Notes under the pieces: generated by a model
Database searches by the model: none
What the model was told of the DNA's origin: nothing
The model's input: the letters and a program-made list of their open reading frames with translations, nothing else
Part shown: positions 9,212-42,016 of the stretch, piece after piece
How positions within the stretch are numbered: the stretch's first letter is position 1
How the letters are laid out: each line of letters opens with the position of its first letter
Position numbers and translations under genes: made by a program
Origin: Spirochaetae bacterium HGW-Spirochaetae-4
GTDB taxonomy: Bacteria; Spirochaetota; Spirochaetia; Sphaerochaetales; Sphaerochaetaceae
NCBI GenBank assembly: GCA_002839335.1
Contig: PGXU01000008.1
Coordinates: 1 to 64,000 of the forward strand
Length of the DNA: 64,000 nt
Direction: 5' to 3'

Positions 9212-11014
9212 TCACAACGGCAGTGTCACGGTGAGGCAGGTTCGGTACATACGGTCATCCTCAATTGCTATGGTTCCTTCGTGAGCCTCTACGATATGCT
9301 TCGAGATCGCCAAGCCGAGGCCTGTGTTGAACTTGTTCACTTTCGTGCTGTAGAAGGGTTCAAAGATCTTGTCCCTGATCTCCTCGGGAATGCCGTTGCC
9401 GTTGTCCTTGATGCGAACCTTTGCCTTGCCGAAGTTCTTGACCACCTCTATCTGGATCTTTCCGTAGTCGAGGATCGCGTCAATGCTGTTCATGATCAGG
9501 TTGATGAACAGCTGCTTGAGCTTGTCCTCGATGCCCCTGCTGATCATGACCCCTGGGACTATTCGCCTTACCACTACGATATGCTTGGCATTGAGCCGAT
9601 GGTTCAGCAAAAGCAACACATCCTCGAGCAATGATGACAGGTCGACCTGTTGGAAGTACTCGGTCTTGATCTTCGAGAAGTTCAACAGGGAGGAAATGGT
9701 CCGCACAATCCTATCCAGTTCCAAGTGGATGGTCTGGAGTTTCTCCGCGATGTAGGGGTTCTCATTCTTCATCGCTACAAGCTCCAGGTAGTTTTTTATA
9801 GCAAACAGAGGATTGTTGATCTCGTGGGCAACCCCGACAGCCATCTCCGCAATCGAGGCGAACTTCTCGGTCTTTTGCAGGTATTCCTTGATGCTGTCAT
9901 CGAGAGCGTTGTCCTGCACGATCAGGAGCGTCCCGATCGGCTCGCTGTTGTCATCGCGAATGGAACTGACTTGAACGTCGAGCTTCCGGTTCTGGATAGC
10001 CTCAAGACCGATCCAGTTGTGGCTGGCATGACAGTAAATCTCATTGAGGATCTCATCATGATGCTTCGGGAACGTCGTTGCGAGGAACGCGGGCAAACCC
10101 TCGTTGATCGACTTGGTGGAAAGATCCAGACCGAGTAGGCTCTTGGCTCTCGTGTTCATGGTCTGGATATTCAATTCATTGTCGAGGATGAATACACCTA
10201 AGGGGATTTCGTGGATGAGACGCCGCACATGGTCGTTGAAGAGCATGAGCTTGTCAGCTTGGACCAACTGTTGCTGGTCGATGGAGAATGAGTAGGTCAG
10301 CTCGTAGAGTCTGACACTGTCGAGATTGGAGACCATGTCGGTCTCCAGGCGACGACCCTTGTTGAGGATCGTCACCCGGTCAGCGAATTTGATCACCTCT
10401 TGGATATCGTGCGAGATATAGATGATGCCACAACCCTGTGCTTTCAGTGTATCGATGACTCGGTAGACGTTCTGCATCTCCGTGGGAGTGAGCTTGTTGG
10501 AAAACTCATCGAGAATAAGGATTTGCGGTTCGATGATGAGAGCACGAAGGAACTCGATCAAGAACTGCTGGTCAGCGGGCAAGTTCCTGATTTTCGTATG
10601 GTAATCGATGAAGATACCATAGCGATCCATGAGCTCTTGAAGCGTTGCCTCCATCTTCCTGTAGGTGATCATTCCTCCACGCGTGGGCAATTGGTGGGCG
10701 AATATGAAGTCCAAGGGCTCGAGGTCTGGGATGACCGCGGTATTCTGATACACCGTTCCGATGCGTTGCCGCATCGCAGATCGTGGAGTGAAATAGGAAA
10801 CCTGCTTGCCGTTGAGGCAGATTGTTCCCGAGCGTGCGCGTTCCGCACCGCTGAGGATTTTCACGAGTGTCGATTTTCCTGCCCTGTGCTCACCGGTCAG
10901 TGCGTGGATCTCACCTTGGAACAGATTGAAATCTACCCCCTTCAGGGCTTGTAGCTCTCCATAGTTCATGTGGATGTCATGCATCTCCAGAAGCGACCTC
11001 GCCGATTGGATCAT
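9212..11014 (-). CDS. ABC ATPase domain-PAS-histidine kinase fusion, locus 1
   Basis: This 600-residue hybrid starts with an ABC ATPase domain of the sugar-importer (RbsA-like) kind at about 1-240: Walker A GEHRAGKST (41-49), Q-loop Gln90, Walker B ILILDE (165-170), H-loop His202. The LSGGQ signature is replaced by LPADQQ (145-150), and the Pro after Walker B is Phe171. A PAS-like region (about 260-375) contains GVFILDNELNIQTMNTRAKS. A full HisKA/HATPase kinase follows: phospho-acceptor His397 (VAHEINNP), N-box INLIMNSIDAI, DNGNGIPE, FEPFYSTK and GLGLAISKHIV. There is no membrane segment, so it is cytoplasmic. It overlaps its response regulator by 4 bp and diverges from an ABC importer. I infer a transporter-derived sensor. 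A second copy is at 40184. Confidence 0.92.
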   Translation of the reverse strand: MIQSARSLLEMHDIHMNYGELQALKGVDFNLFQGEIHALTGEHRAGKSTLVKILSGAERARSGTICLNGKQVSYFTPRSAMRQRIGTVYQNTAVIPDLEPLDFIFAHQLPTRGGMITYRKMEATLQELMDRYGIFIDYHTKIRNLPADQQFLIEFLRALIIEPQILILDEFSNKLTPTEMQNVYRVIDTLKAQGCGIIYISHDIQEVIKFADRVTILNKGRRLETDMVSNLDSVRLYELTYSFSIDQQQLVQADKLMLFNDHVRRLIHEIPLGVFILDNELNIQTMNTRAKSLLGLDLSTKSINEGLPAFLATTFPKHHDEILNEIYCHASHNWIGLEAIQNRKLDVQVSSIRDDNSEPIGTLLIVQDNALDDSIKEYLQKTEKFASIAEMAVGVAHEINNPLFAIKNYLELVAMKNENPYIAEKLQTIHLELDRIVRTISSLLNFSKIKTEYFQQVDLSSLLEDVLLLLNHRLNAKHIVVVRRIVPGVMISRGIEDKLKQLFINLIMNSIDAILDYGKIQIEVVKNFGKAKVRIKDNGNGIPEEIRDKIFEPFYSTKVNKFNTGLGLAISKHIVEAHEGTIAIEDDRMYRTCLTVTLPL

Positions 11015-12360
11015 TTCTCTATCCCGTACTTGCGCAACTTCGTATTGAGCGTCTTGCGATCGATTCCCAGCATTTTCGCGGCATTCGTCTTCACTCCGTG
11101 GGAGAGCTCCATAGCTTCCACCAGGATATTCTTGGTCATCTCATCGTACTTGCTCACCAATCCGTCATTCACCGGGTTCTCCCGGCTGTAGTACTGCTCG
11201 GGAAGGTCTCCGAATGTGACAGTCTCCGAGTTGCAGAATATGCAGAGACGCTCCATCAGGTTCTTCAACTCGCGGACATTCCCTGGCCATGTATGGTTGT
11301 AGAGCATTGCCTGGACCTCGTCCGACAGTCGTTTGACACGCTTGCCATAGTTTGCGTTGTAGTATCCGAGGAAGTGGTGGGCTAAGGGAATGATGTCCTC
11401 GCGCCGTTCACGCAGAGGCGGAATTCGCAAGGTTATGACACTCAAGCGGTAGAAAAGGTCGGCCCTGAACAGTTTCTGGTCTATCGCGCTAAGCAGGTCT
11501 GTATTCGTTGCCGCGATGATCCTGGCGTTCGATTCGATCTCCTGGGTCCCCCCGATGCGACTGAACGTGTGTTCCTGCAACACCCGCAGGAGCTTGGCTT
11601 GCGACTCCATCGACATGTCTCCGATCTCATCGAGGAATACTGTGCCGTCACCCGCTGTCTCGAAGATCCCCTTATGCATCTCCTTCGCATCGGTGAACGA
11701 GCCCTTCTCGTGGCCGAACATATAGCTTTCGAGCAAGGTATCGGGTATCGCTGCGCAGTTTACGGTCACCAGCGGTTTCTTGTCCTGCGTGCTGATCATA
11801 TGGAGCATCCGGGCGACAACCTCCTTCCCGGTTCCGCTCTCTCCGGTGATGAGTACGGTTGCCGGGGTAGGGGCTACCTTCTCGATCTTCTCACGAAGAT
11901 TTCGCATGCACGGAGTAGGTGACTCATAGACCACATGGTCCGCGAGCCTCTTTATCTTAAAAGTAGCATCCCGCAATTGGTTGATCTCATCCACGAGCTT
12001 GCTTATGTCGATCGGTTTCTGATAGAGGTTCACCGCTCCATATCGCATCGCCTTCACTGCGTCCTCGACGGAGGCGTATCCGCTTATGATGATCACTGCG
12101 GTTTCGGGGGAGACTTGCTTGAGCTTTCTAAGCAATTCAACACCACTGAGCTGTGGCATCCGGATGTCCAGTAGAACAAGATTGATCGATTCAGATGCAA
12201 GCCTCCCAGGGGCTTGGAGCGGGTCCATGCAGAAGCAGGTTTCGTAGTCAAACTCTTGTAGTATCTCACATAAGGATAAGCAGACGGATTTTTCGTCATC
12301 TATGATCATCACCTTGTATTTCATATAGGCAGTATATGGTAAGGAATCACTCTTGGTCAA
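11011..12360 (-). CDS. NtrC-type sigma54-dependent response regulator, locus 1
   Basis: This 449-residue regulator has a receiver domain (phospho-acceptor Asp65 in LVLLDIRMP), a sigma54-activator AAA+ domain (Walker A GESGTGKE at 173-180, Walker B VFLDEIGD near 241-248) and a Fis-type helix-turn-helix at the end (TNAAKMLGIDRKTLNTKLRK). The sigma54 contact loop reads GSFTDA (220-225) where GAFTGA is the rule; the fifth Gly is Asp. The TTG start is supported by AAGGAG just upstream; the ATG at 12324 has no site. It is translationally coupled to the ABC-kinase fusion, its predicted partner. Its target is probably the sigma54 promoter at 12483, and the palindromes in its own leader suggest autoregulation. 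Confidence 0.93.
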   Translation of the reverse strand: MTKSDSLPYTAYMKYKVMIIDDEKSVCLSLCEILQEFDYETCFCMDPLQAPGRLASESINLVLLDIRMPQLSGVELLRKLKQVSPETAVIIISGYASVEDAVKAMRYGAVNLYQKPIDISKLVDEINQLRDATFKIKRLADHVVYESPTPCMRNLREKIEKVAPTPATVLITGESGTGKEVVARMLHMISTQDKKPLVTVNCAAIPDTLLESYMFGHEKGSFTDAKEMHKGIFETAGDGTVFLDEIGDMSMESQAKLLRVLQEHTFSRIGGTQEIESNARIIAATNTDLLSAIDQKLFRADLFYRLSVITLRIPPLRERREDIIPLAHHFLGYYNANYGKRVKRLSDEVQAMLYNHTWPGNVRELKNLMERLCIFCNSETVTFGDLPEQYYSRENPVNDGLVSKYDEMTKNILVEAMELSHGVKTNAAKMLGIDRKTLNTKLRKYGIEK

Positions 12361-12370
12361 ATTATTCTCC

Positions 12371-12419
12371 TTGGGGATATTTTCCCCACCATGGGCACGT
12401 CTTGGGGAATTTTTTCCCG
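12371..12419. promoter_or_regulatory. Tandem 17-bp palindromes, likely enhancer sites for the NtrC-type regulator
   Basis: Site 1 is TGGGGATATTTTCCCCA (12372-12388), an exact palindrome of 6-bp arms. Site 2 starts with TGGGGA at 12403 and is imperfect (TGGGGAATTTTTTCCCG, 12403-12419). Their centres are 31 bp apart, about three helical turns. They lie about 130 and 99 bp upstream of the expected start from the sigma54 promoter at 12483, which is the normal enhancer distance. The 17-bp TG-N13-CA form matches that of classical NtrC sites. Site 1 also abuts the regulator's own ribosome site. Confidence 0.65.
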
Positions 12420-12482
12420 TCTACGGCATGTGATAATGTGCGATACTGTCGTTGTAACCATCCGGATTGACGGTTTTCTGTG

Positions 12483-12499
12483 TTGGCACGATACGTGCA
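12483..12499 (+). promoter_or_regulatory. Sigma54 (-24/-12) promoter of importer operon 1
   Basis: TTGGCACGATACGTGCA has GG at 12485-12486 and GC at 12497-12498 with exactly 10 bp between them, and a perfect TGGCACG -24 element. The -12 element is GTGCA against the TTGCA consensus. Transcription should start near 12510, 20 bp before the binding-protein ATG. Confidence 0.8.
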
Positions 12500-12529
12500 C
12501 TACACTTGGTATCAAGGAAGGAGGCCCGT

Positions 12530-13522
12530 ATGAAAAAACTGGCAATGATCGTAGTATTAGTGTGTCTTGTCGCGTCCATGACACTCTTCGCCGCCGGACA
12601 GCAGGAAGCTGCAAAGGAAGCCGAGGGATTCAAAGTCGCGTACATGACTCCCGCTCTTCACATCCCATTCTGGAAGGATATCGCTGATGGAATCAGGGAC
12701 GAAGCGGCCAAGGTGCCAAACGTGACCATCATCAATTCCGACTCCAAACTCAGCGCCGCCACCCAGTTCCAGAACGCTCAAGACCTGATCGTTTCGGGTA
12801 TCGATGCCATTATCATTTCCCCCACCGACTCTGCATCTTGCCCAGCGGTGCTCGAGCTTGCGGCTGAGAACAAGGTGCCCGTTTTCATCTGTGATATCGG
12901 AACCGACAGCGGTCCTTACACTGCATTTGTCGCGACCGACAACACTACTGGTGCCAAGACAGCCGGCGATTATTTCTTGAAGGTTGCGAAGGAACGTGGA
13001 GTCACCGGGGGTGAAGTCGCCATGATCACCATCAGCCAAGCCCGCCAGAACGGCAAGGACCGCACAGCAGGATTCAAGAGTGCCCTTGCGGGAAGTGGAT
13101 TCACCGTGACCACGATGCTCGAGTGCAAAGACTACACTCGTAGTGAGTCTATGAACCTCGCCCAGGATATCCTGACCGCGAAGCCAAAGCTTGTCGGACT
13201 GTTCACACAGCACGATGAAGCCAACCTCGGTGTTCTTCCCGCGAAGGAGACTGCGGGTATCATGGACAAGCTGATCCACGTTGGATTCGATGGCAGTCCC
13301 GAGACCGTGGAAGCCATCAAAAAGGGAGAGATCTCTGCCGCTGCCATGCAACAGCCTGTCACCATGGGCCGCGAGGCTTTCAAGGCCGCATACGCCTACC
13401 TGACCGGAAAGCCTTTTGATAAGCTCATTGTCGTCGATACCATACTGGTGACCGCGGAGAATGTCGAGGAAGTGGAACCCATCCTCGCTGACAACGTGTA
13501 CCCGAACGAACTGAAAATGTAA
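12530..13522 (+). CDS. RbsB-like sugar ABC transporter binding protein, locus 1
   Basis: This is a periplasmic type-I binding protein (Peripla_BP_4) of 330 residues. The signal peptide MKKLAMIVVLVCLVASMTLF ends AAGQQE, the spirochaete style; there is no lipobox Cys. Core motifs are HIPFWKDIADGIRDEA, the SGIDAIIISPTDSASCPAVLELA hinge region and GFDGSPETVEAIKKGEISAAAMQQP. GGAAGGAGG (12516-12524) precedes the ATG. It is the first gene of a four-gene operon behind the sigma54 promoter and is followed by a strong hairpin that should raise its level over the downstream genes. The ligand is unknown; it need not be a sugar, given the cyclase-family hydrolase gene next to it. Confidence 0.93.
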   Translation: MKKLAMIVVLVCLVASMTLFAAGQQEAAKEAEGFKVAYMTPALHIPFWKDIADGIRDEAAKVPNVTIINSDSKLSAATQFQNAQDLIVSGIDAIIISPTDSASCPAVLELAAENKVPVFICDIGTDSGPYTAFVATDNTTGAKTAGDYFLKVAKERGVTGGEVAMITISQARQNGKDRTAGFKSALAGSGFTVTTMLECKDYTRSESMNLAQDILTAKPKLVGLFTQHDEANLGVLPAKETAGIMDKLIHVGFDGSPETVEAIKKGEISAAAMQQPVTMGREAFKAAYAYLTGKPFDKLIVVDTILVTAENVEEVEPILADNVYPNELKM

Positions 13523-13538
13523 TTTGATTCCTAGGACT

Positions 13539-13561
13539 GTGGGGATGGCATCCATCCCCAC
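13539..13561 (+). other. Intercistronic hairpin after the binding-protein gene
   Basis: The perfect 10-bp arms GTGGGGATGG (13539-13548) and CCATCCCCAC (13552-13561) enclose a 3-base loop. No T-run follows, so it is more likely an RNA-stability or partial-termination element than a full terminator. Confidence 0.75.
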
Positions 13562-13598
13562 GGCTCATGGGTACGTCGCATCGAATGAGGAGGCATGC

Positions 13599-14384
13599 GT
13601 GAACGATAAGATATTGAACAACGTTGGGAACCACATGCATTGGCCGTTCGACAAGCTAGTGGACCTTAGTGTACCTATTTCACGGGATTTACCCGTCTCC
13701 TGGCCCGGCCACCATGGTTTTGAGCATACGAAGTGGAGATCTTTCAATGCCGGTGATTTTTACCAGACCAGCTACTTCACGATGGACGAGCACTGTGGGA
13801 CCCACTGTGACGCTCCCGCGCACTTTATGCGTCCTGAAGAATTCGAGGGGTCTTGCTATTACGGAGACCTGTTGCCGCTTGATATGATGCATGGGCCCTT
13901 GAAGATTATCGATGTGCGCCCATTGCGTGCAACATCCCACGATGGAATCAGCCCCGAGATAGCACCGGAGGTGATTCAATCATGGGAGCACTCCCACCAA
14001 AGTGTTGAGAGCGGGGATATCGTTGTATTCTTTACCGGGTGGGACCGGTTTCTCTCCGATTCGGGTACGAGGCACCTGTATGTTGACGGACCTGTGATTG
14101 AGAAAAACGCCCCCGGATGGCCAGTGCCCTCGATAGCTACCATCGATTATCTGCATGACAAGGGAGTCCATTGCTTTGGGATCGATACCCCGAGCATGGG
14201 CGCTTCACAAGGCGGCATGGCCTTGCATCGTCACGCATTGTCAAAGAGCTTGATATTCGTGGAAGGATTGGCGAATCTGGACTTGGTGCCCAGCACCGGG
14301 TACCACTTCATGTTCCTGCCTGTAAAACTGGAACTGTCAACGGGATGTCCCGGACGTGCGATCGCAATAGGAGTACATTCCTGA
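13599..14384 (+). CDS. Cyclase family hydrolase (kynurenine formamidase-like)
   Basis: This 261-residue enzyme belongs to the Cyclase superfamily of metal-dependent hydrolases that open cyclic or N-formyl amides, including KynB and isatin hydrolase. The metal-site motif is complete: HCGTHCDAPAHF, with VDLSVPISRDLPVSWPGH near the N-terminus and the GDIVVFFTGWDR strand. Start GTG 13599 lies 5 bases behind GAGGAGG (13587-13593). It sits between the binding protein and the transporter ATPase, and its stop overlaps the ATPase ATG. That placement suggests it acts on the imported molecule, which would then be a cyclic amide, lactone or ester rather than a plain sugar. The substrate assignment is an inference. 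Confidence 0.88.
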   Translation: MNDKILNNVGNHMHWPFDKLVDLSVPISRDLPVSWPGHHGFEHTKWRSFNAGDFYQTSYFTMDEHCGTHCDAPAHFMRPEEFEGSCYYGDLLPLDMMHGPLKIIDVRPLRATSHDGISPEIAPEVIQSWEHSHQSVESGDIVVFFTGWDRFLSDSGTRHLYVDGPVIEKNAPGWPVPSIATIDYLHDKGVHCFGIDTPSMGASQGGMALHRHALSKSLIFVEGLANLDLVPSTGYHFMFLPVKLELSTGCPGRAIAIGVHS

Positions 14385-15928
14385 TGACACAGAATACTCT
14401 GCTGGAAGTTGAGCATATCTCGAAAAATTTTGGAGTTGTGCAAGCGCTGAAGGATGTGTCATTTCCCATTTATGAGGGCGAGATCCTCGCACTCGTAGGT
14501 GAGAATGGAGCAGGAAAGTCGACCCTGGCGAAGATCATCGCTGGAGTTCACACCCAGAGCGAGGGAAGAATTGTCTTCGATGGTGAAGCGCTTGCTTGCA
14601 AGACGACCCGGGAGGCACGGGCGAAGGGGATTGCCATCGTCTTGCAGGAGTTCGCACTCATACCCCACCTCTCGATAGCTGAGAACATATTCTTGACAAG
14701 CAAGGAGATGTATCAGCAAGGAGTTTGGCAGAACCACCAGAAGATGGTTGAGGAAACCGAGGCTTTGTTCAAACGTACGATGATCGATTTCGACCTTGAT
14801 CCGAACGAGAAGGTTCAGAATCTCTCCGTTGCCCAACAGCAGTATGTCGAAATTGTGAAAGCGCTCTCGACGAACGCACGCCTGATCATCCTCGATGAAC
14901 CGACATCCGCGCTTTCGCAGAAAGAGGTCCAACACCTCTTTGCCCTTATGCAAAACCTCAACGCCAATGGAGTGACCCTCATCTTCGTCAGCCATAAGCT
15001 TGATGAGATTTTCACGATCTCCGATAGGATTGTCGTCTTCCGAGACGGTGTGTTCGTGAAGGAGATGGAAACATCCGCGAGCAATGAACAGGAGCTTATC
15101 AAGGCGATGGTGGGTCGTGATGTGGGAGACCTTTACTCGATACGACACCGGGCTCCTCAGGATGAGCGACTCCTCGAGGTAGCTGCATTGCGCAATGGGT
15201 TCTCTCCTGAGACTCCCTATAACCTACATTTGGATAGGGGGGAGGTCCTGGGATTGTTCGGGCTCGTCGGATCAGGGAGAACGGAACTCATGCGTTCGAT
15301 ATTCGGTGCTGATCCGATTATGGACGGCAGTGTGGTGATCAAAGGAAAGCAGACGGCAGGCAAGCCGCTGAAGATGGCTATCCAATCGGGATTCGGGATG
15401 CTCCCTGAGGATCGCAAGAACCAGGGTCTTTTGCTTGAACAATCCATACACGATAATATTTTCTTGGCATATACTGCCAACCGCGCCCATTTCTTCAGGA
15501 ACTTGAAGGAGGAGAAGCGCCAAGCCGAGCAGAAGATCAAGGAACTGCGAATAAAGATGGGATCGGTCAACAATCCGGTGAATTCGCTCAGCGGTGGGAA
15601 CCAACAGAAGGTTGCCTTCGCCAAGTGGCTGCTCGTGCAACCTGATGTGCTGATCCTTGATGAACCTACCAGAGGGATCGACATCGGAGCAAAGTTTGAG
15701 GTCTACGCGCTGATTGACCAGTTGGCAAACCAAGGGACCTCCCTATTGCTGGTCTCCTCGGAATTGCCCGAGATCCTTGCGCTCTCTGACCGAATCCTGG
15801 TGATGAACCAGGGACAGGTAGTCAAGGAGCTCGACCATTCGGAGGCATCCGAGGAGTTGATCATGTACTATTGCACGATGGATCTGGATACTATCGGAAC
15901 TATTGGGGGAACACATGGGAACAATTGA
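14384..15928 (+). CDS. RbsA-like ABC transporter ATPase (two NBDs), locus 1
   Basis: This is the cytoplasmic energy subunit of the CUT2-type importer, with two fused ATPase domains in 514 residues. The first has GENGAGKST, LSVAQQQYVEI and LIILDEPTSAL. The second has the degenerate Walker A typical of the family (GLVGSGRTE), then LSGGNQQKVAFAKWL and LILDEPTRGIDIG. The start is set by the ATG that overlaps the cyclase stop, with AATAGGAG upstream; the long in-frame extension to 14171 is not used. It overlaps the permease gene. Compared with it, the kinase-fused ABC domain at 9212 is a single domain that has lost the signature motif. Confidence 0.95.
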   Translation: MTQNTLLEVEHISKNFGVVQALKDVSFPIYEGEILALVGENGAGKSTLAKIIAGVHTQSEGRIVFDGEALACKTTREARAKGIAIVLQEFALIPHLSIAENIFLTSKEMYQQGVWQNHQKMVEETEALFKRTMIDFDLDPNEKVQNLSVAQQQYVEIVKALSTNARLIILDEPTSALSQKEVQHLFALMQNLNANGVTLIFVSHKLDEIFTISDRIVVFRDGVFVKEMETSASNEQELIKAMVGRDVGDLYSIRHRAPQDERLLEVAALRNGFSPETPYNLHLDRGEVLGLFGLVGSGRTELMRSIFGADPIMDGSVVIKGKQTAGKPLKMAIQSGFGMLPEDRKNQGLLLEQSIHDNIFLAYTANRAHFFRNLKEEKRQAEQKIKELRIKMGSVNNPVNSLSGGNQQKVAFAKWLLVQPDVLILDEPTRGIDIGAKFEVYALIDQLANQGTSLLLVSSELPEILALSDRILVMNQGQVVKELDHSEASEELIMYYCTMDLDTIGTIGGTHGNN

Positions 15929-16895
15929 AATGGACAAGACCAAACACACGCGCATGGGCGGATTGCACAACTTCAGATCGGAGTATTCGGTGGAGATCAT
16001 GATGTTCCTCGTATTCCTTCTGCTCTGTGCATTGATCAGCGTGCTGACTCCCCGCTTTCTCAGTGCTGGGAATATTCGGAATCTCTTCTGGCAGGCGACG
16101 ACCGTGGGCATCATCGCGATCGGACAGACGTTGATTATCCTGACGGCTGGAATCGACCTTTCTGTCGGCGGTATCATGGCTATCTCAGCGATGCTCGGTG
16201 GCTTGGTAATGAGCAACACCAGCCTCGGAGCGGGTATCACCACCGTTTTGCTTACCGGTCTCGGGGTAGGGGTACTGAATGGCGTGTTGGTCTCCTATGC
16301 CCGTTTGGCCCCATTCATCGTGACACTCGGTACGCTCTCGATCACCCAGTCGTTGACCTATGTGATCACCGATGGTAGTTCTATCACCGGACTGCCGGCG
16401 GGATATCGTTTCTTCGGGTACCAGCGGGTTTTCGGTCTCCCGCTTTACACCATTGTGCTGATCGGGCTGTTTATCCTCGGTCACATCATGTTGAAGAAGA
16501 CAAAGCTAGGCCGGTTCCTCTACGCAATCGGCAGTAATGAAGAAGCCTCCCGGTTAGCCGGAGTGAATGTGAAATTCAACAAGATGATCGCCTACAGCAT
16601 CACCGGTTTACTCTGCGCCATCGCTGCTTTAATCCTTACGAGTCGTCTCGGTGCCATTGATCCCGATACCGGAAGCGGTATCGAACTCGATACAATCGCC
16701 GCCGTCGTCATCGGTGGTGCGAGCATGAGCGGTGGAAAGGGTAGCTTGGTGGGAACCTTGATTGGAGTCTTTTTCATCACGGTGTTACACAATGGTCTGA
16801 ATTTGATCGGTGTCTCTCCGTTCTGGCAAGGATCTGCTGTCGGTGCGGTCATTATCATCTCAGTGCTTCTGGACAGCATGCTACGCAGTAGGTAG
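15915..16895 (+). CDS. RbsC-like ABC transporter permease, locus 1
   Basis: This is the membrane subunit of the CUT2-type importer, 326 residues with about eight to ten hydrophobic helices. Family motifs include TPRFLSAGNIRNLFWQ, GQTLIILTAGIDLSVGG, PFIVTLGTLSITQ, GSNEEASRLAGVN and GGASMSGGKGSLVGTLIG. ATG 15915 lies 5 bases behind GGGGGA (15905-15910); a TTG at 15903 is the alternative. The gene overlaps the ATPase gene by 14 bp and ends the operon. A long copy of the dispersed repeat begins 10 bp after it. Confidence 0.94.
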   Translation: MGTIEMDKTKHTRMGGLHNFRSEYSVEIMMFLVFLLLCALISVLTPRFLSAGNIRNLFWQATTVGIIAIGQTLIILTAGIDLSVGGIMAISAMLGGLVMSNTSLGAGITTVLLTGLGVGVLNGVLVSYARLAPFIVTLGTLSITQSLTYVITDGSSITGLPAGYRFFGYQRVFGLPLYTIVLIGLFILGHIMLKKTKLGRFLYAIGSNEEASRLAGVNVKFNKMIAYSITGLLCAIAALILTSRLGAIDPDTGSGIELDTIAAVVIGGASMSGGKGSLVGTLIGVFFITVLHNGLNLIGVSPFWQGSAVGAVIIISVLLDSMLRSR

Positions 16896-33987: not shown

Positions 33988-34902
33988 TTAGTGCTCTTCA
34001 TAATAGGCTACTCCCAATTTCGAAGGAACATTGAACGATTTTCTGCTAATCGTAAGTACGATGGTCAAAATATAGGGGAGGGAAATAAACAATTCGTTTG
34101 GAAGAATTGTGGAGGCATTGGCCTGCATCAATATAGCGAACGCTTCAGCCAATCCAAAAATAAGAGTTCCAACGAAAGCCCCGATCGGATTCCAGTTCCC
34201 GAGAAAACAGATTGCAAATGCTATCCACCCTCTTCCTCCAATCATGTTGGTGGTGAACTTTCCCAGATACCCGATCGAGTAGAATGCACCTGCGATTCCG
34301 CAGATGATACCGGAAATGGAGACAGTAACGAATCTCACTCGTGATACACTGATTCCAGAAACATCGACCGCTTCCGGATTCTCCCCGGTCGATCTGATCA
34401 CCAGGCCCAACGAAGTCTTATACAGGATGAAGTATCCCAGAGGTACGAGTACATAGATCGAATACGTAAGTATGTTCTGCTGGAAAAATATCGGTCCTAT
34501 GAAAGGAATTTTTGAAAGAAGTGGAATCGCTATCTTTTGCAAAGGTTCAACAGTCAAAGGAGATAGAGGCACTCCGAACACAACTCGCTGTAAGAACGAA
34601 CAGAGACCGAGGATAAGAATGTTGATGGCGGTTCCCGTTACAATCTGATGCTGTTTCAGCGTCACCACGATATAGGCATAGAGCATTGCTACGAGCAATC
34701 CTGAAAGGGCAGCATACAGTAGCCCCATAGCCAAACTTCCTGTTATATAGGCGGCGGTAAAACCTGCCCATGCACCCATCAGGAATATTCCTTCAATTGC
34801 AGTAACCATCACGCCTGTTCTTTCTGAGAACACTTCCGACAAGGACCCGAGTAGAAGAGGGGTACTCATCAATACAGCCCTGGAAAACAAGTTGATCAAC
34901 AT
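33988..34902 (-). CDS. BMP-type ABC importer permease (COG1079), locus 2
   Basis: This is one of two membrane subunits of a BMP-family (nucleoside or simple-sugar-like) ABC importer, 304 residues with about eight helices. COG1079 features are LLLGSLSEVFSERTGVMVTA, IEGIFLMGAW, HQIVTGTAINILILGL and the end region GRGWIAFAICFLGNWNP. It begins exactly at the stop of the upstream permease gene. It is the last gene of the four-gene operon controlled by the sigma54 promoter at 38678. Confidence 0.93.
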   Translation of the reverse strand: MLINLFSRAVLMSTPLLLGSLSEVFSERTGVMVTAIEGIFLMGAWAGFTAAYITGSLAMGLLYAALSGLLVAMLYAYIVVTLKQHQIVTGTAINILILGLCSFLQRVVFGVPLSPLTVEPLQKIAIPLLSKIPFIGPIFFQQNILTYSIYVLVPLGYFILYKTSLGLVIRSTGENPEAVDVSGISVSRVRFVTVSISGIICGIAGAFYSIGYLGKFTTNMIGGRGWIAFAICFLGNWNPIGAFVGTLIFGLAEAFAILMQANASTILPNELFISLPYILTIVLTISRKSFNVPSKLGVAYYEEH

Positions 34903-35954
34903 TATACATTCCCCTCCATAAGCAGCTTCTTATCCCTGTTCATTTCCCATTTTCTACGTACGAAATAGGATATGATCACGAATACCATGACAAACCCCTC
35001 CATCAAGTTGATGATACTCGAAGGAACTCCGGATAACTGACCCATGATGGTTCCTCCCACATGGAGTGCCCCGAAGAGGATTGAAGCGAAGATAATGCCA
35101 ATAGGATTCCCATTCGCCAATATTGCGATTCCGATCCCGAGAGCTCCGATGGAAGGATTGAAGCCTTGCAAGAGCATATGCTGAACGCCATTCACTTCTG
35201 TCACTCCGGCAAGTCCCGCCAATCCTCCACTGATGATGAAGGAGATGATATAGATAATCTCGGGATTGACTCCGCTCATCCTGGCAGCTTCCTGATTCTG
35301 TCCTACCGCTCGTATCCGAAAACCGAATGTTGTCCTGTACAGGATGAGCCAGACGGTTACCGCAGCGAGTATAGCCAGGATGAATCCGAAATGAAGTCGT
35401 GTATGCGGCACGATTTTGAACAACCATGTACTTTTTGCCAGTGATTCGGTTTGCGGATATTCCCCTTTGCTCTCCATCAATATCGTCCTTAGCAGATAAT
35501 TCATCAGATTGAGCGCAACATACGTGCTCATCATACTGATGAGAAACTCGTTTGCTTTGAACTTAGCCTTGGACACACCCATGAAGCCTCCCCAAAGCCC
35601 ACCGGCGAGAAACGACAGGACAATCGCTACAGGAATCGCTAGAGCGGAAGGTATGAGAAGCGATACCGACACAGCCGTGATGGATCCTATGTAGAACTGG
35701 CCTTGGGCGCCGATATTGAACAAATTGGCTTTGAACGTGAAGGCAAAAGCCAATGCGGTGAAGATGAGCGGGGTGGCTTTTACGAATATTTCTCCGATCG
35801 TATATCCGTCGCGGAACATGGAAGAAAAGAGAATGCCGAAGACACTGAATGGATTCTTCTTCAGAAAAAGAATCATGATACCGCTCAGAATCAAACCCAA
35901 TACCACAGCAAAAAAGTTCGTGATTAAAATATCTCGAGTTTTCTTATCCATCAT
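34902..35954 (-). CDS. BMP-type ABC importer permease (COG4603), locus 2
   Basis: This is the second membrane subunit of the BMP-type importer, 350 residues with about ten helices. Family motifs include GEIFVKATPLIFTALAFAFT, KANLFNIGAQGQFYIGSI, KAKFKANEFLISMMSTYVAL, FRIRAVGQNQEAARMSG and GFNPSIGALGIGIAILANGN. It overlaps the ATPase gene by 4 bp and the next permease by 1 bp, so all transport genes are translationally coupled. Confidence 0.93.
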   Translation of the reverse strand: MMDKKTRDILITNFFAVVLGLILSGIMILFLKKNPFSVFGILFSSMFRDGYTIGEIFVKATPLIFTALAFAFTFKANLFNIGAQGQFYIGSITAVSVSLLIPSALAIPVAIVLSFLAGGLWGGFMGVSKAKFKANEFLISMMSTYVALNLMNYLLRTILMESKGEYPQTESLAKSTWLFKIVPHTRLHFGFILAILAAVTVWLILYRTTFGFRIRAVGQNQEAARMSGVNPEIIYIISFIISGGLAGLAGVTEVNGVQHMLLQGFNPSIGALGIGIAILANGNPIGIIFASILFGALHVGGTIMGQLSGVPSSIINLMEGFVMVFVIISYFVRRKWEMNRDKKLLMEGNV

Positions 35955-37468
35955 ACCACTTCCTGATGTGTATAACCGGCCATCAATAGGCCTATCTTTT
36001 GACTATCGAGCTCGGAAGTCCTGAAGATTCCCTGAATCTTTCCTTTATAGAAAACGGCGACTCTATCACACAGGGCGAAAATTTCCGACAATTCAGTGGA
36101 AACCAACATGATCGCTTTGTTATTCTTTTTCTCTTTCAGTATAGCCGAATGCACATTATTGATCGCCCCGAGATCCAATCCCCTGGTCGGCTGGTCAAAG
36201 ATGATGAAATCACCACAAAACTCAACCTCTCTGCCGACAATAACTTTCTGCTGGTTCCCTCCGGAGAGTTCCCGTGCCAATGCGTACGGTCCTGGAGCTT
36301 TTACATCGTATTTGTGCAACATCCGAGATGTAGTCTCAGCGAGTTTTTTCCTGTTTATTATTCCATTATTGTTCCATTCTTTGGAATAGCTGGCTTTCAA
36401 GAACATATTCTCGGAAAGATTCATATCCATCACCATTCCGTACCGGTGTCTATCCGATGGGACATACCCTATTCCCAGGGTTATCCTTTTTCTGATCGAG
36501 AGATGGGTAATATCCTCATTATTCAGTAGGATCGAACCCGATGTAGGTTTCATTGCGCCACAAAGCGTCATGCAAAGTTCCTGCTGTCCATTTCCTGAGA
36601 CTCCGGCAATTCCAAAAATCTCACCTTTATGAATATCAAAATCAACATCATGTAACAACGGGACTTCATTCCGCGGTACCACTGTGAGGCCCTGGACTGA
36701 AAGACACACCTCACCTGCTTCACGTTTGTCTTCTCCCTTATCCAACTCTTCGATCGAATGTTCGATCATCATCCTGGATAATTCCATTTCATTCGTTGCT
36801 TCTTTCAAGACATTACCATGTATTCTTCCGGATCTCATCACAATGATTCTGTTGGCGACATGCATGACCTCTTTCAATTTATGGGTAATGAATATGACAG
36901 CATTTCCTTTCCGGGAATAATTTTCCACAAATTCCATCAGGTTGTCGATTTCCTGTGGAGTGAGGACAGCCGTCGGTTCGTCCATGATCAACAGATTGGC
37001 ATCGAGGTAGAGCGATTTAAGAATTTCCACTTTCTGTTGCTCTCCCACAGAGAGGTCTTGTATTTTTTTTCGTACATCGACATTGAATCCATATCTGTGT
37101 GCAAGTTGTTGTATGGTATTTTCTGCTTCCTTCCAGTTGATTTTTCCTTTCACATTGCCGAGTATGATATTTTCTGTGACCGTGTGGGCCGAGACGAGGG
37201 AGAAATGCTGTTGTATCATCGAAATCTTATACCGCATCGCATCCCTTGGGGTCCGTATCGAGATTCTTTCACCTTCCTTGAAGATTTCTCCTTCATCTGC
37301 CTGATACAAGCCATAGAGGATTTTCATGCAGGTACTCTTTCCAGCACCATTTTCTCCGAGAAGTGCGAGCACCTCACCCCTATCCACCGATAAGGAGACG
37401 TCCTTGTTTGCTATGACTTTTGCAAAATACTTCGAAATGTTCTTTAATTCAAAAAAAGGTGTACTCAT
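35951..37468 (-). CDS. BMP-type ABC importer ATPase (two NBDs), locus 2
   Basis: This 505-residue energy subunit has two fused ATPase domains. The first has GENGAGKST, LSVGEQQKVEILKSL and LLIMDEPTAVLTP. The second has GVSGNGQQE, LSGGNQQKVIVGREV and FIIFDQPTRGLDLG, the usual YufO-type variant in which the Walker B Glu is Gln. It is separated from the binding-protein gene by 154 bp containing a 13-bp-stem hairpin. Its first domain (GLYQADEGEI, MIQQHFSLV) is the closest relative in the window to the ABC domain of the kinase at 40184, which suggests the sensor arose from such an ATPase. Confidence 0.95.
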   Translation of the reverse strand: MSTPFFELKNISKYFAKVIANKDVSLSVDRGEVLALLGENGAGKSTCMKILYGLYQADEGEIFKEGERISIRTPRDAMRYKISMIQQHFSLVSAHTVTENIILGNVKGKINWKEAENTIQQLAHRYGFNVDVRKKIQDLSVGEQQKVEILKSLYLDANLLIMDEPTAVLTPQEIDNLMEFVENYSRKGNAVIFITHKLKEVMHVANRIIVMRSGRIHGNVLKEATNEMELSRMMIEHSIEELDKGEDKREAGEVCLSVQGLTVVPRNEVPLLHDVDFDIHKGEIFGIAGVSGNGQQELCMTLCGAMKPTSGSILLNNEDITHLSIRKRITLGIGYVPSDRHRYGMVMDMNLSENMFLKASYSKEWNNNGIINRKKLAETTSRMLHKYDVKAPGPYALARELSGGNQQKVIVGREVEFCGDFIIFDQPTRGLDLGAINNVHSAILKEKKNNKAIMLVSTELSEIFALCDRVAVFYKGKIQGIFRTSELDSQKIGLLMAGYTHQEVV

Positions 37469-37579
37469 ATCTTTTCCCTGAAAGGATTACATGTTGAATG
37501 TTCCTTTTGTAAGCTTGAAGGAAGGGAAGGCCGGTATGTCCACAGGAGACTACCTTGCAGTCCCATATCCTTGAAAGAC

Positions 37580-37609
37580 ACAATATCCCGATCGAAATCG
37601 GGATATTGT
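37580..37609 (-). other. Intercistronic hairpin after the BMP binding-protein gene
   Basis: The perfect 13-bp arms ACAATATCCCGAT (37580-37592) and ATCGGGATATTGT (37597-37609) flank a 4-base loop. It lies 13 bp after the stop of the binding-protein gene. There is no T-run on the minus strand, so an mRNA-stability or attenuation role is more likely than full termination. Confidence 0.8.
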
Positions 37610-37622
37610 ATGCTAGTATCTT

Positions 37623-38636
37623 CTACTTGAACATTGACTGGAAATCAATTTCCCCTGTGAGGGCTTTTGCGATGCCTGCATCGACTCTTCCCTTGATATC
37701 CCCCGAGAATCCATCGGGATATATTGGCTTGAAGATCCCTTCTGCGATTCCGGCTTCATGCACCTGTCCTCCTGAGAGAGTTCCCTCATAGAATCTCTCG
37801 ACAGCCCAGGTGTAGAATGACTCGAAATCGAAAATGACGGAAGCAACTACAGTACCGGGTGCGATATCATTCTGATTGCTGGAGAAACCGACAAACCGCT
37901 TTCCTTTTTCCTTCGTCGCCTGGATCGCACCAAGACCCACCTGGTTGGCATACACGAACAGTGTATCGGCACCATTGTCGATCATTGTCTCAGCCATCTG
38001 CTTGCCAAGAGCTATATCATCCCAGCTGTTCGCATATGATCTGGTAGCCGAGGCACCAGCGATCCCACGATCAACAGCGATAGCCACTGCGACTGCTTCG
38101 TAGACGTCCAATAACTTTTCCATTGCTTCATTGGGGAATCCACCTATTGTGGCGAATTTTCCATTTACAGTCACTTCACCAGCGATCAGAGCGGCAATGT
38201 AGCTTGCTTCGTATTCCTTTGGGAATATGGGAGATACATTGGGATAATCGGCCTTGAATCCATTCACCACGCAGAATGTCGTGTCGGGATACTCAGCCGC
38301 CACCTTGTTGGCCGCATCATCGAATTGTGTTCCCGCTGCCATAATCAGATCATATCCCCTTTCACTGTAATTCCTGAAAGTCGATTCGTAATCCGAGGCT
38401 TGAACATTCTCGATATACTCCATCCTTGTTCCAAGCTGTTCATTGCATGCTACGAGGCCGGCATAGTTGGTGGCATTCCACGACTGGTCATTGATGGGAC
38501 CGGGAAGGATCAGAACGATCTTCAAATCACTTATGTTCTTCTCCCCGGAAGTTCCCTGAGTTTCTTTGGATCCTGCGGCGAAAAGCGAAGCCGCAACCAA
38601 ACAACAGATTAGCAAGATTGACAGTACCTTTTTCAT
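37623..38636 (-). CDS. BMP-family binding protein, locus 2
   Basis: This 337-residue periplasmic binding protein is of the basic membrane protein / PnrA family, whose members bind purine nucleosides or related ligands. The signal peptide is MKKVLSILLICCLVAASLFA followed by AGSKET. Family motifs are VLILPGPINDQSWNATNYAG, YDLIMAAGTQFDDAANKVA, YIAALIAGEV and FVGFSSNQNDIAPGTVVASV. The start at 38636 follows GGAG; the longer in-frame extension to 38714 would cross the sigma54 promoter and is rejected. It is the first gene of the operon. Nucleoside uptake is the family norm, but the ligand is not certain. Confidence 0.94.
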   Translation of the reverse strand: MKKVLSILLICCLVAASLFAAGSKETQGTSGEKNISDLKIVLILPGPINDQSWNATNYAGLVACNEQLGTRMEYIENVQASDYESTFRNYSERGYDLIMAAGTQFDDAANKVAAEYPDTTFCVVNGFKADYPNVSPIFPKEYEASYIAALIAGEVTVNGKFATIGGFPNEAMEKLLDVYEAVAVAIAVDRGIAGASATRSYANSWDDIALGKQMAETMIDNGADTLFVYANQVGLGAIQATKEKGKRFVGFSSNQNDIAPGTVVASVIFDFESFYTWAVERFYEGTLSGGQVHEAGIAEGIFKPIYPDGFSGDIKGRVDAGIAKALTGEIDFQSMFK

Positions 38637-38677
38637 GTTTTCTCCTTTTTGATGAATATTGTTCCTTCTCCATCCAA

Positions 38678-38694
38678 TGCAAGTACTATGCCAA
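38678..38694 (-). promoter_or_regulatory. Sigma54 (-24/-12) promoter of importer operon 2
   Basis: Minus-strand TTGGCATAGTACTTGCA has GG (plus 38691-38692) and GC (plus 38679-38680) separated by exactly 10 bp. The -12 element TTGCA is perfect and the -24 element TGGCAT is one base from TGGCAC. Transcription should start near 38667, about 31 bp before the binding-protein ATG. Confidence 0.82.
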
Positions 38695-38779
38695 GAGGCA
38701 CTATATCCACGCATATTGTGTATGTGGTATGAATATTACAACTTCATACATTGAGATTTCATTTTTTTTATACTTCAGT

Positions 38780-38827
38780 TGTCCTAAAATAGGACAGTGT
38801 TTGTTCAGATTGTACTGAAATTGTCAG
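38780..38827. promoter_or_regulatory. 17-bp palindrome, likely enhancer site for the locus 2 regulator
   Basis: TGTCCTAAAATAGGACA (38780-38796) is a perfect palindrome of 7-bp arms with an AAA centre. A weaker second site, TGTACTGAAATTGTCAG (38811-38827), has its centre 31 bp away, the same spacing as the pair in locus 1. The main site is about 120 bp upstream of the sigma54 start point at 38667. Both sites lie in the leader of the response-regulator gene if TTG 38857 is the start, which allows autoregulation. Confidence 0.65.
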
Positions 38828-38856
38828 AGTTATACCTATGTGGGGAGAAAAAGATA

Positions 38857-40182
38857 TTGGATATCCTGTTCATTGACGATAACCACCAGCTGTTCCAAGT
38901 CCTCAAAGACAATTTTTCATTTGTCGGGCATTACCTCTTTTATGCAAAGAACACACAAAATGCATTTTCTGTCTTGGAAAAGGAAGACATCGATATCATC
39001 TTGCTTGATGTCAAGTTGGGAAATGAGAATGGGGTGGAGACTCTGGAGAAGCTGAAAGAGATCTATCCCTGTATTCCTGTCATCATGATAACGGGATATG
39101 CCACCGTAGAAGCTGCTGTCAGGGCAATCAAACTCGGTGCATTCGATTTTGTGAGCAAGCCGATCGATTTCAACACGCTTTGTACGATCATCGATTCGGC
39201 GACAGAGCATAAGGTGGAGCAAAAAGCACAGGAAGGGGTAAGTTATGACCTGAACGGTGCACCTATCCTTCTGCAAAGCAAAAATGCCGAGTACTGTAAC
39301 GTCTTGCATCGGGCAAAACAGCTTGCCGCTTCCGATATCACCATCCTGATCATCGGTGAAAATGGTACGGGAAAGGAAGGCTTGGCCGAATATATCTATA
39401 AGAATTCGAATAGGCGCGCGGAGAATTTCATAAAGATCAACTGTGCGGCCTTTCCCGAGAGTCTCCTCGATAATGAACTGTTCGGTCATGAAAAGGGTGC
39501 GTATACCGGGGCTTCCTCGGAATATAGGGGAGTCTTCGAGCAAGCGGATGGTGGAACCCTGCTTCTTGATGAGATTGGGGACATGCCGAAAACATTACAA
39601 GCAAAAATACTCAGAGTACTTCAGAACCAGGAAATCAGAAGAATCGGCGGTAATGAGACGAGGAAGATCAGTGTACGGTTCCTGGCATCCACAAACAAGG
39701 ATCTCCCGACAATGGTGCAAGAGGGGATGTTCAGGGAAGATCTGTTCTACCGGTTGAATGGAGGAATGCTGCAAATCCCCCCTCTGAGGAAGCGTAAGGA
39801 AGATATTGAAGACCTTATTCATCATTTGTTGAACAGGATAACCGACAACACTTCTTTGCCTCATAAGCGACTGTCTCCCGAGGTCCTTTCCGTATTTATC
39901 GGTTATTCTTGGCCGGGGAATATCCGGGAACTCAAGAATGCGCTTCTCTATGCAGTGACTATTTCTCAGAGCGAGGAGCTCATGCTGGAAGATCTGCCAC
40001 CAGGTATCGAAGTCAGTGGATCCCAGATACATAATTCACTGAGCCTGGTTCAACAGAAGGAAAAGGAATTGATACAAAACGTACTGCGCAAAACCAACAA
40101 CAATAAGTCCGAGGCAGCCAAATATCTGAATATGGGTAGAAATACCCTGTATCTGAAACTGAAGAAGTATGGACTAGTGTAA
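38857..40182 (+). CDS. NtrC-type sigma54-dependent response regulator, locus 2
   Basis: This roughly 441-residue regulator has a receiver (LDILFIDDNH; phospho-acceptor Asp51 in IILLDVKLGNENG), a sigma54 AAA+ domain (Walker A GENGTGKE; contact loop GAYTGA at about 214-219, an accepted variant; Walker B LLLDEIGDMP) and a Fis-type helix-turn-helix (SEAAKYLNMGRNTLYLKLKK). I choose TTG 38857, nine bases behind GGGGAG (38842-38847), because it begins at the receiver fold and leaves the palindromes outside the gene. GTG 38797 is the longer option. It lies 1 bp ahead of the ABC-kinase fusion and diverges from the BMP operon, mirroring locus 1. Confidence 0.93.
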   Translation: MDILFIDDNHQLFQVLKDNFSFVGHYLFYAKNTQNAFSVLEKEDIDIILLDVKLGNENGVETLEKLKEIYPCIPVIMITGYATVEAAVRAIKLGAFDFVSKPIDFNTLCTIIDSATEHKVEQKAQEGVSYDLNGAPILLQSKNAEYCNVLHRAKQLAASDITILIIGENGTGKEGLAEYIYKNSNRRAENFIKINCAAFPESLLDNELFGHEKGAYTGASSEYRGVFEQADGGTLLLDEIGDMPKTLQAKILRVLQNQEIRRIGGNETRKISVRFLASTNKDLPTMVQEGMFREDLFYRLNGGMLQIPPLRKRKEDIEDLIHHLLNRITDNTSLPHKRLSPEVLSVFIGYSWPGNIRELKNALLYAVTISQSEELMLEDLPPGIEVSGSQIHNSLSLVQQKEKELIQNVLRKTNNNKSEAAKYLNMGRNTLYLKLKKYGLV

Positions 40183-40183
40183 T

Positions 40184-42016
40184 ATGTATGAAAAGCTCGT
40201 TGATATCAAAGATGTACGGCTCAATTATAATAAAGTGAGAGTGCTGAATCGTATCAATATCAGCTTTCATAGCAACAGCATACATGCCGTAATCGGAGAA
40301 CATGGTGCCGGGAAATCGAGTCTGGGATTGATTCTCTGCGGCTTGGCCAGACCGGATTCGGGGACAATTTCTCTCTGCGATAACGAGTATTCACATATTC
40401 AGACTAAGGTCGCAAAAAAGAAGGGAGTACGATTTGTTCATCAACAATTGATGCTGAATCCTTTATTCAGCATCGCTGAGACTCTTTTTTTCAATGATCA
40501 TACCACTCCGTTTTTTTCTCTTACTCTGAAAAAGCAACTCAATGCCATGGCTGAATCATATCTTCAGGAATTCGGAATATCCATGGATGTTCAACAGTTG
40601 ATTAAGAACCTTACGCTCTCGGAACGTGCCCTTATCGCTATTCTGGCAAAAATTAAAAATAATCCAAGAGTGCTGATACTCGATGAATCCTTGGACAAAC
40701 TCTCTGTCGAGTATTATCAAAAGCTCAAGATTGTTCTGAAAAAGCTGAAGGCAGATGGAAGTTGTATCATCATCATGACCCATAAGATTGACTGGGCATT
40801 CGAAATCTCCGATAGAGTCTCAATCATACGGAATGGAACAAACATTCTCACCGAAGACATCCAGAGTATTGGGAAGATGCAAATCATCAAAATGGCATAT
40901 ACGCAACTATCCGAAACTCCAGAGACCGTGGACCCTTCAGATTCCTTCTATCATTTGATCAAATATAATGAAGCGATACTTGAAAATCTTCCGGTCAATC
41001 TGATAATCCTGAATAACAAAGGCATTCTCAAACTCGCGAACAAATATTTTGTGAGCAACTTCGACGTGAATCTGAAAGCTATGATTGATAAGCCCGGAAG
41101 TATCCTCCTAGATAAAACGTCCGACACTACGAAGAATGTCATATTGAACCAGCTGTCTCAAACTTCCGAACAGACTACGTATCATCTTTCACTTCACATT
41201 CATGGGGTAGAAGGCATATACAATGTTCATTACTCACCAATCTACGATGGCAATGAAAAGATCGGGTCGATGCTGATCTTCTATGATATCACCGAGTATG
41301 ACTACTTGCAGCAAAACCACCACTTGTCTGAAAAACTGTCATCGGTCGGACTGTTGTCCGCTGGTGTTGCCCATGAGATCAACAATCCGCTGGATATCAT
41401 AAGCAACTATCTCACAAATATACGATTCAGATTCAATGATCCGGATCTTCTGGCAATCGTGGATCAGTTGTCAAAACAGGTGACCTTCATCAATAAAATT
41501 GTCAGTAACCTTCAGAATTTCTCCAATTTGGAAAAGGTTTCTCCTGAAGATATCAATATCAATGAATTGGTGAAGGAGATGATTGACCTGTTAAGTGTGA
41601 ATGCAAAGTTGAAGGATATCACGATCAACTTTGTTGAGAAGGACAGGAATACTATTGTCAACATCAATGAAAATGAATTCAAACAAGCCTTATTGAACAT
41701 CATCAAGAATAGTTTTGAGTCAATCCATAGGGATGGAACTATCGATATCATAATTGAAAGGGTCTTCGTAAATAGTGAACACTATCTGGAATTGCAAGTT
41801 CTGGATTCCGGAGATGGGGTAGATCTCAGCAAAGACTATTTTACTCCATTCTATTCAACGAAATCGCACAATGGTGTAAATACTGGATTGGGTTTGTCAC
41901 TTGTGTATGGAATAGTCAAAAAGTACCATGGGACAATATCGATTAAGAACAGGATGGATTCCAAGGGTTGTGTGGTAAAAATGTCTTTTCCACTCGTCGA
42001 ATCAACACAACCTTGA
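40184..42016 (+). CDS. ABC ATPase domain-PAS-histidine kinase fusion, locus 2
   Basis: This 610-residue paralogue of the 9212 protein has the same domain order. The ABC domain (about 1-240) has Walker A GEHGAGKSS (38-46), Gln87 or Gln88 at the Q-loop, LTLSERA (143-149) in place of the signature, Walker B VLILDES (163-169) and H-loop His200. A PAS-like region (about 260-370) is followed by HisKA with phospho-acceptor His397 (VAHEINNP), the same residue number as in the other copy, then NIIKNSFESI, DSGDGVD, FTPFYSTK and GLGLSLVYGIV. Kinase motifs are intact; the ABC signature is not. There is no membrane segment. It probably phosphorylates the NtrC-type regulator encoded just upstream. Confidence 0.92.
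   Translation: MYEKLVDIKDVRLNYNKVRVLNRINISFHSNSIHAVIGEHGAGKSSLGLILCGLARPDSGTISLCDNEYSHIQTKVAKKKGVRFVHQQLMLNPLFSIAETLFFNDHTTPFFSLTLKKQLNAMAESYLQEFGISMDVQQLIKNLTLSERALIAILAKIKNNPRVLILDESLDKLSVEYYQKLKIVLKKLKADGSCIIIMTHKIDWAFEISDRVSIIRNGTNILTEDIQSIGKMQIIKMAYTQLSETPETVDPSDSFYHLIKYNEAILENLPVNLIILNNKGILKLANKYFVSNFDVNLKAMIDKPGSILLDKTSDTTKNVILNQLSQTSEQTTYHLSLHIHGVEGIYNVHYSPIYDGNEKIGSMLIFYDITEYDYLQQNHHLSEKLSSVGLLSAGVAHEINNPLDIISNYLTNIRFRFNDPDLLAIVDQLSKQVTFINKIVSNLQNFSNLEKVSPEDININELVKEMIDLLSVNAKLKDITINFVEKDRNTIVNINENEFKQALLNIIKNSFESIHRDGTIDIIIERVFVNSEHYLELQVLDSGDGVDLSKDYFTPFYSTKSHNGVNTGLGLSLVYGIVKKYHGTISIKNRMDSKGCVVKMSFPLVESTQP

Follow-up and report, generated by a model that had tools for sequence, protein, structure and literature searches.

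The region at 12372-12510 of the window (the whole 64 kb stretch of DNA that was analysed) is very probably the control region of an inducible, sigma54-dependent importer operon. This confidence applies to the sigma54 control circuit; the docking of its partner kinase on the importer is graded separately below. The control region itself is of a known kind, with a textbook layout. The unusual part of the circuit is the partner kinase (9212-11014), which combines an ABC ATPase with PAS, HisKA and HATPase domains in one protein. The features of this system, termed the window-1 system with importer 1, are as follows.

9212-11014, minus strand: histidine kinase with an RbsA-like ABC ATPase head, PAS, HisKA and HATPase_c (domain search, full-length conservation in relatives, and a model)
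11011-12360, minus strand: NtrC-type response regulator with receiver, sigma54-interaction and Fis-type HTH domains; start at TTG 12360 or ATG 12324
12372-12388, no strand: palindrome 1, TGGGGATATTTTCCCCA, a perfect dyad and proposed regulator binding site, centre about -130
12403-12419, no strand: imperfect copy 2, TGGGGAATTTTTTCCCG, starting 31 bp on from palindrome 1, centre about -99
12483-12499, plus strand: -24/-12 promoter, TTGGCACGATACGTGCA, expected start 12510 (consensus match and relatives)
12530-13522, plus strand: RbsB-like substrate-binding protein, first gene of importer 1 (domain search)
13524-14384, plus strand: putative cyclase (PF04199) hydrolase inside the importer operon (domain search; also at L032 and L050)
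14390-15928, plus strand: RbsA/AraG-type importer ATPase, start approximate (domain search)
15903-16895, plus strand: importer permease, BPD_transp_2 (domain search)

Promoter, activator and upstream sites of importer 1

The -24/-12 promoter contains one mismatch to TGGCACGN4TTGCW. Its GG (12485-12486) and GC (12497-12498) are separated by N10 in the TGGCAC-N5-TTGC context of a sigma54 promoter, and the exact spacing described in the first-pass annotation is indeed present. The predicted start lies 12 nt past GC, and is followed by the ribosome-binding site AAGGAAGGAGG and then by ATG 12530 of the binding protein. No terminator was found. When the 64 kb are searched for YTGGCAYGN4TTGCW with at most one mismatch, two sites are detected (0.55 expected), one at importer 1 and the other at importer 2. 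Both of these near-consensus sites precede importers that are divergent from regulator operons of the same type.

The search of the genome for rpoN, which had been set as a check of the sigma54 reading, gives one match (Sigma54_DBD, E 8.7e-53). A relaxed -24/-12 pattern (at most one mismatch) is detected 29 times genome-wide versus 17 times for the reversed control, which is a moderate excess. Several perfect sites are located just ahead of plausible sigma54-type targets, including PspA-like and Hsp20-like genes as judged by reading the sequences by eye, and this location would fit with an active RpoN.

The regulator encoded next door had been taken to be a sigma54 activator, and the three domains listed above bear this out. 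Its Walker motifs are GESGTGKE and FLDEIGDM, and its domains are those of the NtrC type. The sigma54-contact loop is GSFTDA, not GAFTGA, with F and T retained. Loops of the forms GAFTDA, GSFTDA and GSYTDA occur commonly in this clade, in many cases next to strong -24/-12 sites, and for Desulfovibrio vulgaris GAFTDA and GSFTGA have been listed among the loop variants expected to keep function (PMC4641369). All parts for activator-dependent transcription are present, as had been claimed: rpoN, the NtrC-type regulator, the -24/-12 promoter with its leader and ribosome-binding site, and the paired upstream sites.

The first-pass annotation described the upstream sites as two 17-bp TG...CA palindromes. 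Palindrome 1 is perfect, in agreement with this description, but copy 2 has two mismatches to TGGGGA-N5-TCCCCA, ends in CG, and is not a TG...CA palindrome. The spacing of 31 bp and the position of the centres about 130 and 99 bp upstream of the expected start were given correctly. When 12361-12482 is subjected to dinucleotide shuffles, a single dyad with 6-bp arms appears in 10% of the shuffles, and a dyad with a second copy (at most two mismatches) in 0.06%.

In G001, whose regulator is 98% identical, palindrome 1 and copy 2 are both unchanged. The 17-bp -24/-12 sequence of G001 contains three changes, which leave GG, GC and the spacing intact, and the site is weakened. At L050 (Sphaerochaeta MAG3), where the kinase head is 72% identical to that of the window-1 system and the recognition-helix residues RKTLN are shared, the corresponding -24/-12 is TTGGCATACTAATTGCA. 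The dyad at the same place of L050 is TGAGGAATTTTTCCTCA, in which both half-sites are altered together at the same position. This matched change is the best evidence for a functional dyad. The conservation of palindrome 1 and the matched change would fit a binding site for a protein dimer, and an RNA stem would fit them as well. The same layout at homologous loci, together with the conserved palindrome and its two-sided change in the nearest outgroup, supports the reading of this region as a sigma54 control region at the level of sequence comparison.

Among the palindrome tests, only this comparison of close relatives is to be regarded as strong. The family-wide test against shuffles (15/40 at p <=0.1) is weak, since chance dyads are frequent and the motif is not the same from clade to clade; the window-1 dyad alone gives p 0.15. 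The first-pass annotation expected a genome-wide scan for the palindrome to reveal a regulon. The strict TGGGGA-N5-TCCCCA pattern detects three perfect palindromes in the genome, and no wider regulon is seen with it. A broader regulon defined by the palindrome is rejected, because the other two copies are located inside long ORFs. The relaxed pattern TGRGGA-N5-TCCYCA detects two extra genome sites.

Conservation of the arrangement among related loci

From 61 searched genomes and one scan of the species-genome collection, a set of 57 non-redundant regulator/kinase pairs was obtained, almost all of them in spirochaete records. Most of these pairs adjoin an RbsA- or BMP-type importer. A divergent -24/-12 scoring at least 17.5, with a matrix whose weights were hand-set from the known consensus, is detected at 37 of the 57 pairs versus 7 of 350 control genes taken from these loci (Fisher p about 7e-31, a value that overstates independence because the pairs are related to each other). 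Among the pairs found without motif selection, 13/16 have a strong divergent -24/-12. At several loci whose importer is located downstream of the kinase (L035, L053, L060, L079 and L108), the -24/-12 is located before the importer or before the genes leading to it, which is the usual finding for this layout. L061 contains a strong -24/-12 inside the predicted binding-protein ORF, and L081 a weaker one at the start of this ORF. No strong -24/-12 is detected at the expected place of about a dozen related loci, and no convincing site at L054, L058, L059, L062, L063 and L064. These comparisons indicate that the predicted control circuit is conserved and mostly spirochaetal. Two candidates from the genome scan, L091 and L100, are not fusions, and match as ordinary BMP-type importer ATPases.

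The full arrangement occurs a second time in the window, in diverged form, at 33988-42016, where the regulator/kinase pair is divergent from a BMP-type importer.

38678-38694, minus strand: -24/-12 TTGGCATAGTACTTGCA before the BMP-type importer (pattern match)
38780-38796, no strand: palindrome TGTCCTATTTTAGGACA, identical in L046
38797-40182, plus strand: NtrC-type regulator, start uncertain (sequence comparison)
40184-42016, plus strand: ABC-headed histidine kinase (sequence comparison)

The palindrome of this second system differs from that of importer 1, and its kinase is about 26-28% identical to the window-1 kinase.

Kinase head and proposed mechanism

Looping contact and ATP-driven promoter opening are established for the NtrC family. 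The course of events that we infer for importer 1, including binding, activation and the sign of the signal, is as follows. The partner kinase would phosphorylate the divergent NtrC-type regulator, and dimers of the phosphorylated regulator would bind both TGGGGA-type sites, which are located on the same DNA face about three helical turns apart. The regulator would then loop to the sigma54-polymerase at 12483-12499 and open the promoter by ATP hydrolysis, so that the genes for the binding protein, ATPase and permease would be transcribed from a start near 12510.

The first 240 residues of the kinase form an ABC ATPase domain, which is most like the importer ATPases YtfR, AraG and AlsA. No clear membrane segment is detected in the kinase; the top 19-residue hydropathy is 1.52, and this stretch is inside the ABC domain. 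The two membrane helices that precede the kinase core in BceS-type kinases were not found in the window-1 kinase, which is without a periplasmic domain. The ABC domain is well predicted in the AlphaFold model of the kinase (pTM 0.44), and the linkers are predicted with lower confidence. Foldseek matches this model both to ABC ATPases and to structures of PAS-kinases; among the matches listed, none is described as a fusion of an ABC ATPase with a PAS-kinase.

Walker A Lys, Q-loop Gln and Walker B Asp, which are the residues looked for in nucleotide binding, are invariant in 61/61 kinase heads and are kept in the neighbouring importer ATPases too (n=56). The H-loop His is present in 43/61 kinases (lost in 18) versus 56/56 neighbouring importer ATPases, and the residues after Walker B are relaxed in the kinase family, with Pro and Thr lost. 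The conserved H-loop and post-Walker-B residues of a functional RbsA-type ATPase are not found across the kinase family; the window-1 kinase itself retains the H-loop His. Walker A Asn is replaced by His in the kinase heads. Because the scan pattern includes this His, its invariance is to be judged on the sequences gathered without the pattern, in which it is present in 17/17. The retention of Walker A, Q-loop and Walker B and the relaxation of other positions make it look as if nucleotide binding is kept, and as if turnover or the ATPase-ATPase interface is changed in the family.

We infer, tentatively and at a little under an even chance, that the RbsA-related head docks on the importer permease to sense the state of the importer. 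A docked head would report substrate delivery, and the importer would therefore serve as its own sensor. The two ATPase-like domains of the kinase dimer might replace the importer ATPase on the permease or compete with it, and the conformation of the transporter might set the activity of the kinase and, via sigma54, the expression of the importer; this scheme is held with the same reserve. Docking is favoured by the RbsA-type head, by the invariant nucleotide-binding residues with relaxed post-Walker-B and H-loop positions, by the lack of a clear membrane segment, and by the tracking of the permease by the head. According to a partial Mantel test, which is prone to false positives, head distances track those of the permease after correction for the kinase core (0.30, p 0.0005), and the reverse comparison gives -0.07. 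The difference between head and core reaches significance in the whole set (p 0.002) and within clade 2 (p 0.006), but not in clade 1 (p 0.27), of which the window-1 system is a member. This distance tracking speaks for a contact of the head with the permease but does not prove it. The importer 1 operon contains one permease gene.

It is also possible, likewise at a little under an even chance, that the sigma54 region acts as described but that the head makes no contact with the permease. The head would then sense a nucleotide or a ligand in the cytosol, or serve only for dimerisation, and an internal metabolite would be read by the PAS domain. Retention of the nucleotide-binding residues and the presence of the PAS domain are as expected from such a head, but the linkage of the pair to an importer in most loci is not, nor is the finding that divergence of the permease is tracked more closely by the head than by the kinase core.

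The proposed role of the palindrome as an importer enhancer has its own alternative, in which the palindrome acts mainly on the regulator operon, where it would serve in autoregulation or form an RNA stem next to the ribosome-binding site. Palindrome 1 directly adjoins the AAGGAG that precedes TTG 12360, a sigma70-like site (TTGACC-18-TATACT) is located at 12360-12331 on the minus strand, and the paired changes also fit an RNA stem. This alternative is nevertheless improbable, because two copies are present at enhancer distance on one helical face, and because the -24/-12 promoter needs an activator and the sole DNA-binding protein encoded next door is an activator. The two roles are compatible and can coexist. 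The TTG 12360 start has a good ribosome-binding site and is accompanied by two synonymous changes in G001, and this arrangement is not evident in L050. The sigma70-like site overlaps this possible start; if it is used, the mRNA of the regulator would begin at or just before ATG 12324, and would be nearly leaderless.

That the -24/-12 and the palindromes are chance matches is hardly credible: a single dyad is frequent in shuffles and the near-consensus sites of the window are mildly above expectation (2 vs 0.55), but the enrichment at the pairs over the control genes, the conservation of the dyad in relatives, and the location of both window sites exactly at the two systems argue against it.

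Relation to known systems

NtrB/NtrC, AtoS/AtoC and ZraS/ZraR resemble the window-1 system in that a PAS/HisKA/HATPase kinase is combined with an NtrC-type activator and a -24/-12 target. The best-scoring family is AtoS for the core of the window-1 kinase and AtoC for its regulator, with all scores far below the family cut-offs. To our knowledge, none of the NtrB, AtoS and ZraS kinases has an ABC ATPase head. The systems nearest to the window-1 circuit in logic are BceAB-BceS and PstB-PhoU-PhoR, in which the kinase reads the state of an ABC transporter and controls the genes of that transporter (PMC6978683). However, BceS and PhoR are membrane kinases that contact the transporter directly or with PhoU, whereas the window-1 system has a transporter-type ATPase domain within a soluble kinase, and its output is via sigma54. 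The CrbS-type kinases, in which a transporter-derived SLC5 module is fused to a kinase (PMC5715377), are the nearest in construction, but their module is a membrane symporter, whereas that of the window-1 kinase is a soluble ABC ATPase domain. In a literature search of open-licence papers, no description of a histidine kinase that carries an ABC ATPase was found.

The mechanism by which kinases sense transporters is still an open question, and a built-in transporter-type ATPase domain would permit a direct test with purified parts. The control region gives the ATPase-headed kinase a well-defined target and read-out, with one promoter, one regulator and one importer. If the proposed docking is true, an importer ATPase has become a sensor head in a mostly spirochaetal family of kinases. 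The PF04199 hydrolase, which is arylformamidase-like and is present in the importer operon here and at L032 and L050, may be a clue to the substrate.

Beyond this locus, the control region suggests that a set of importers is under sigma54 control across the spirochaetes, for which the literature found contains little on sigma54 regulation. Contig C63 of G000 contains two PspA-like genes (L110 and L126), each with a strong -24/-12 in front. Contig C121 of the same genome contains a perfect -24/-12 (L113, near 14549-14565) 23 nt before an ORF for an RpoD-type-like sigma factor, and this site, if so read, would hint that a further sigma factor is under the control of sigma54.
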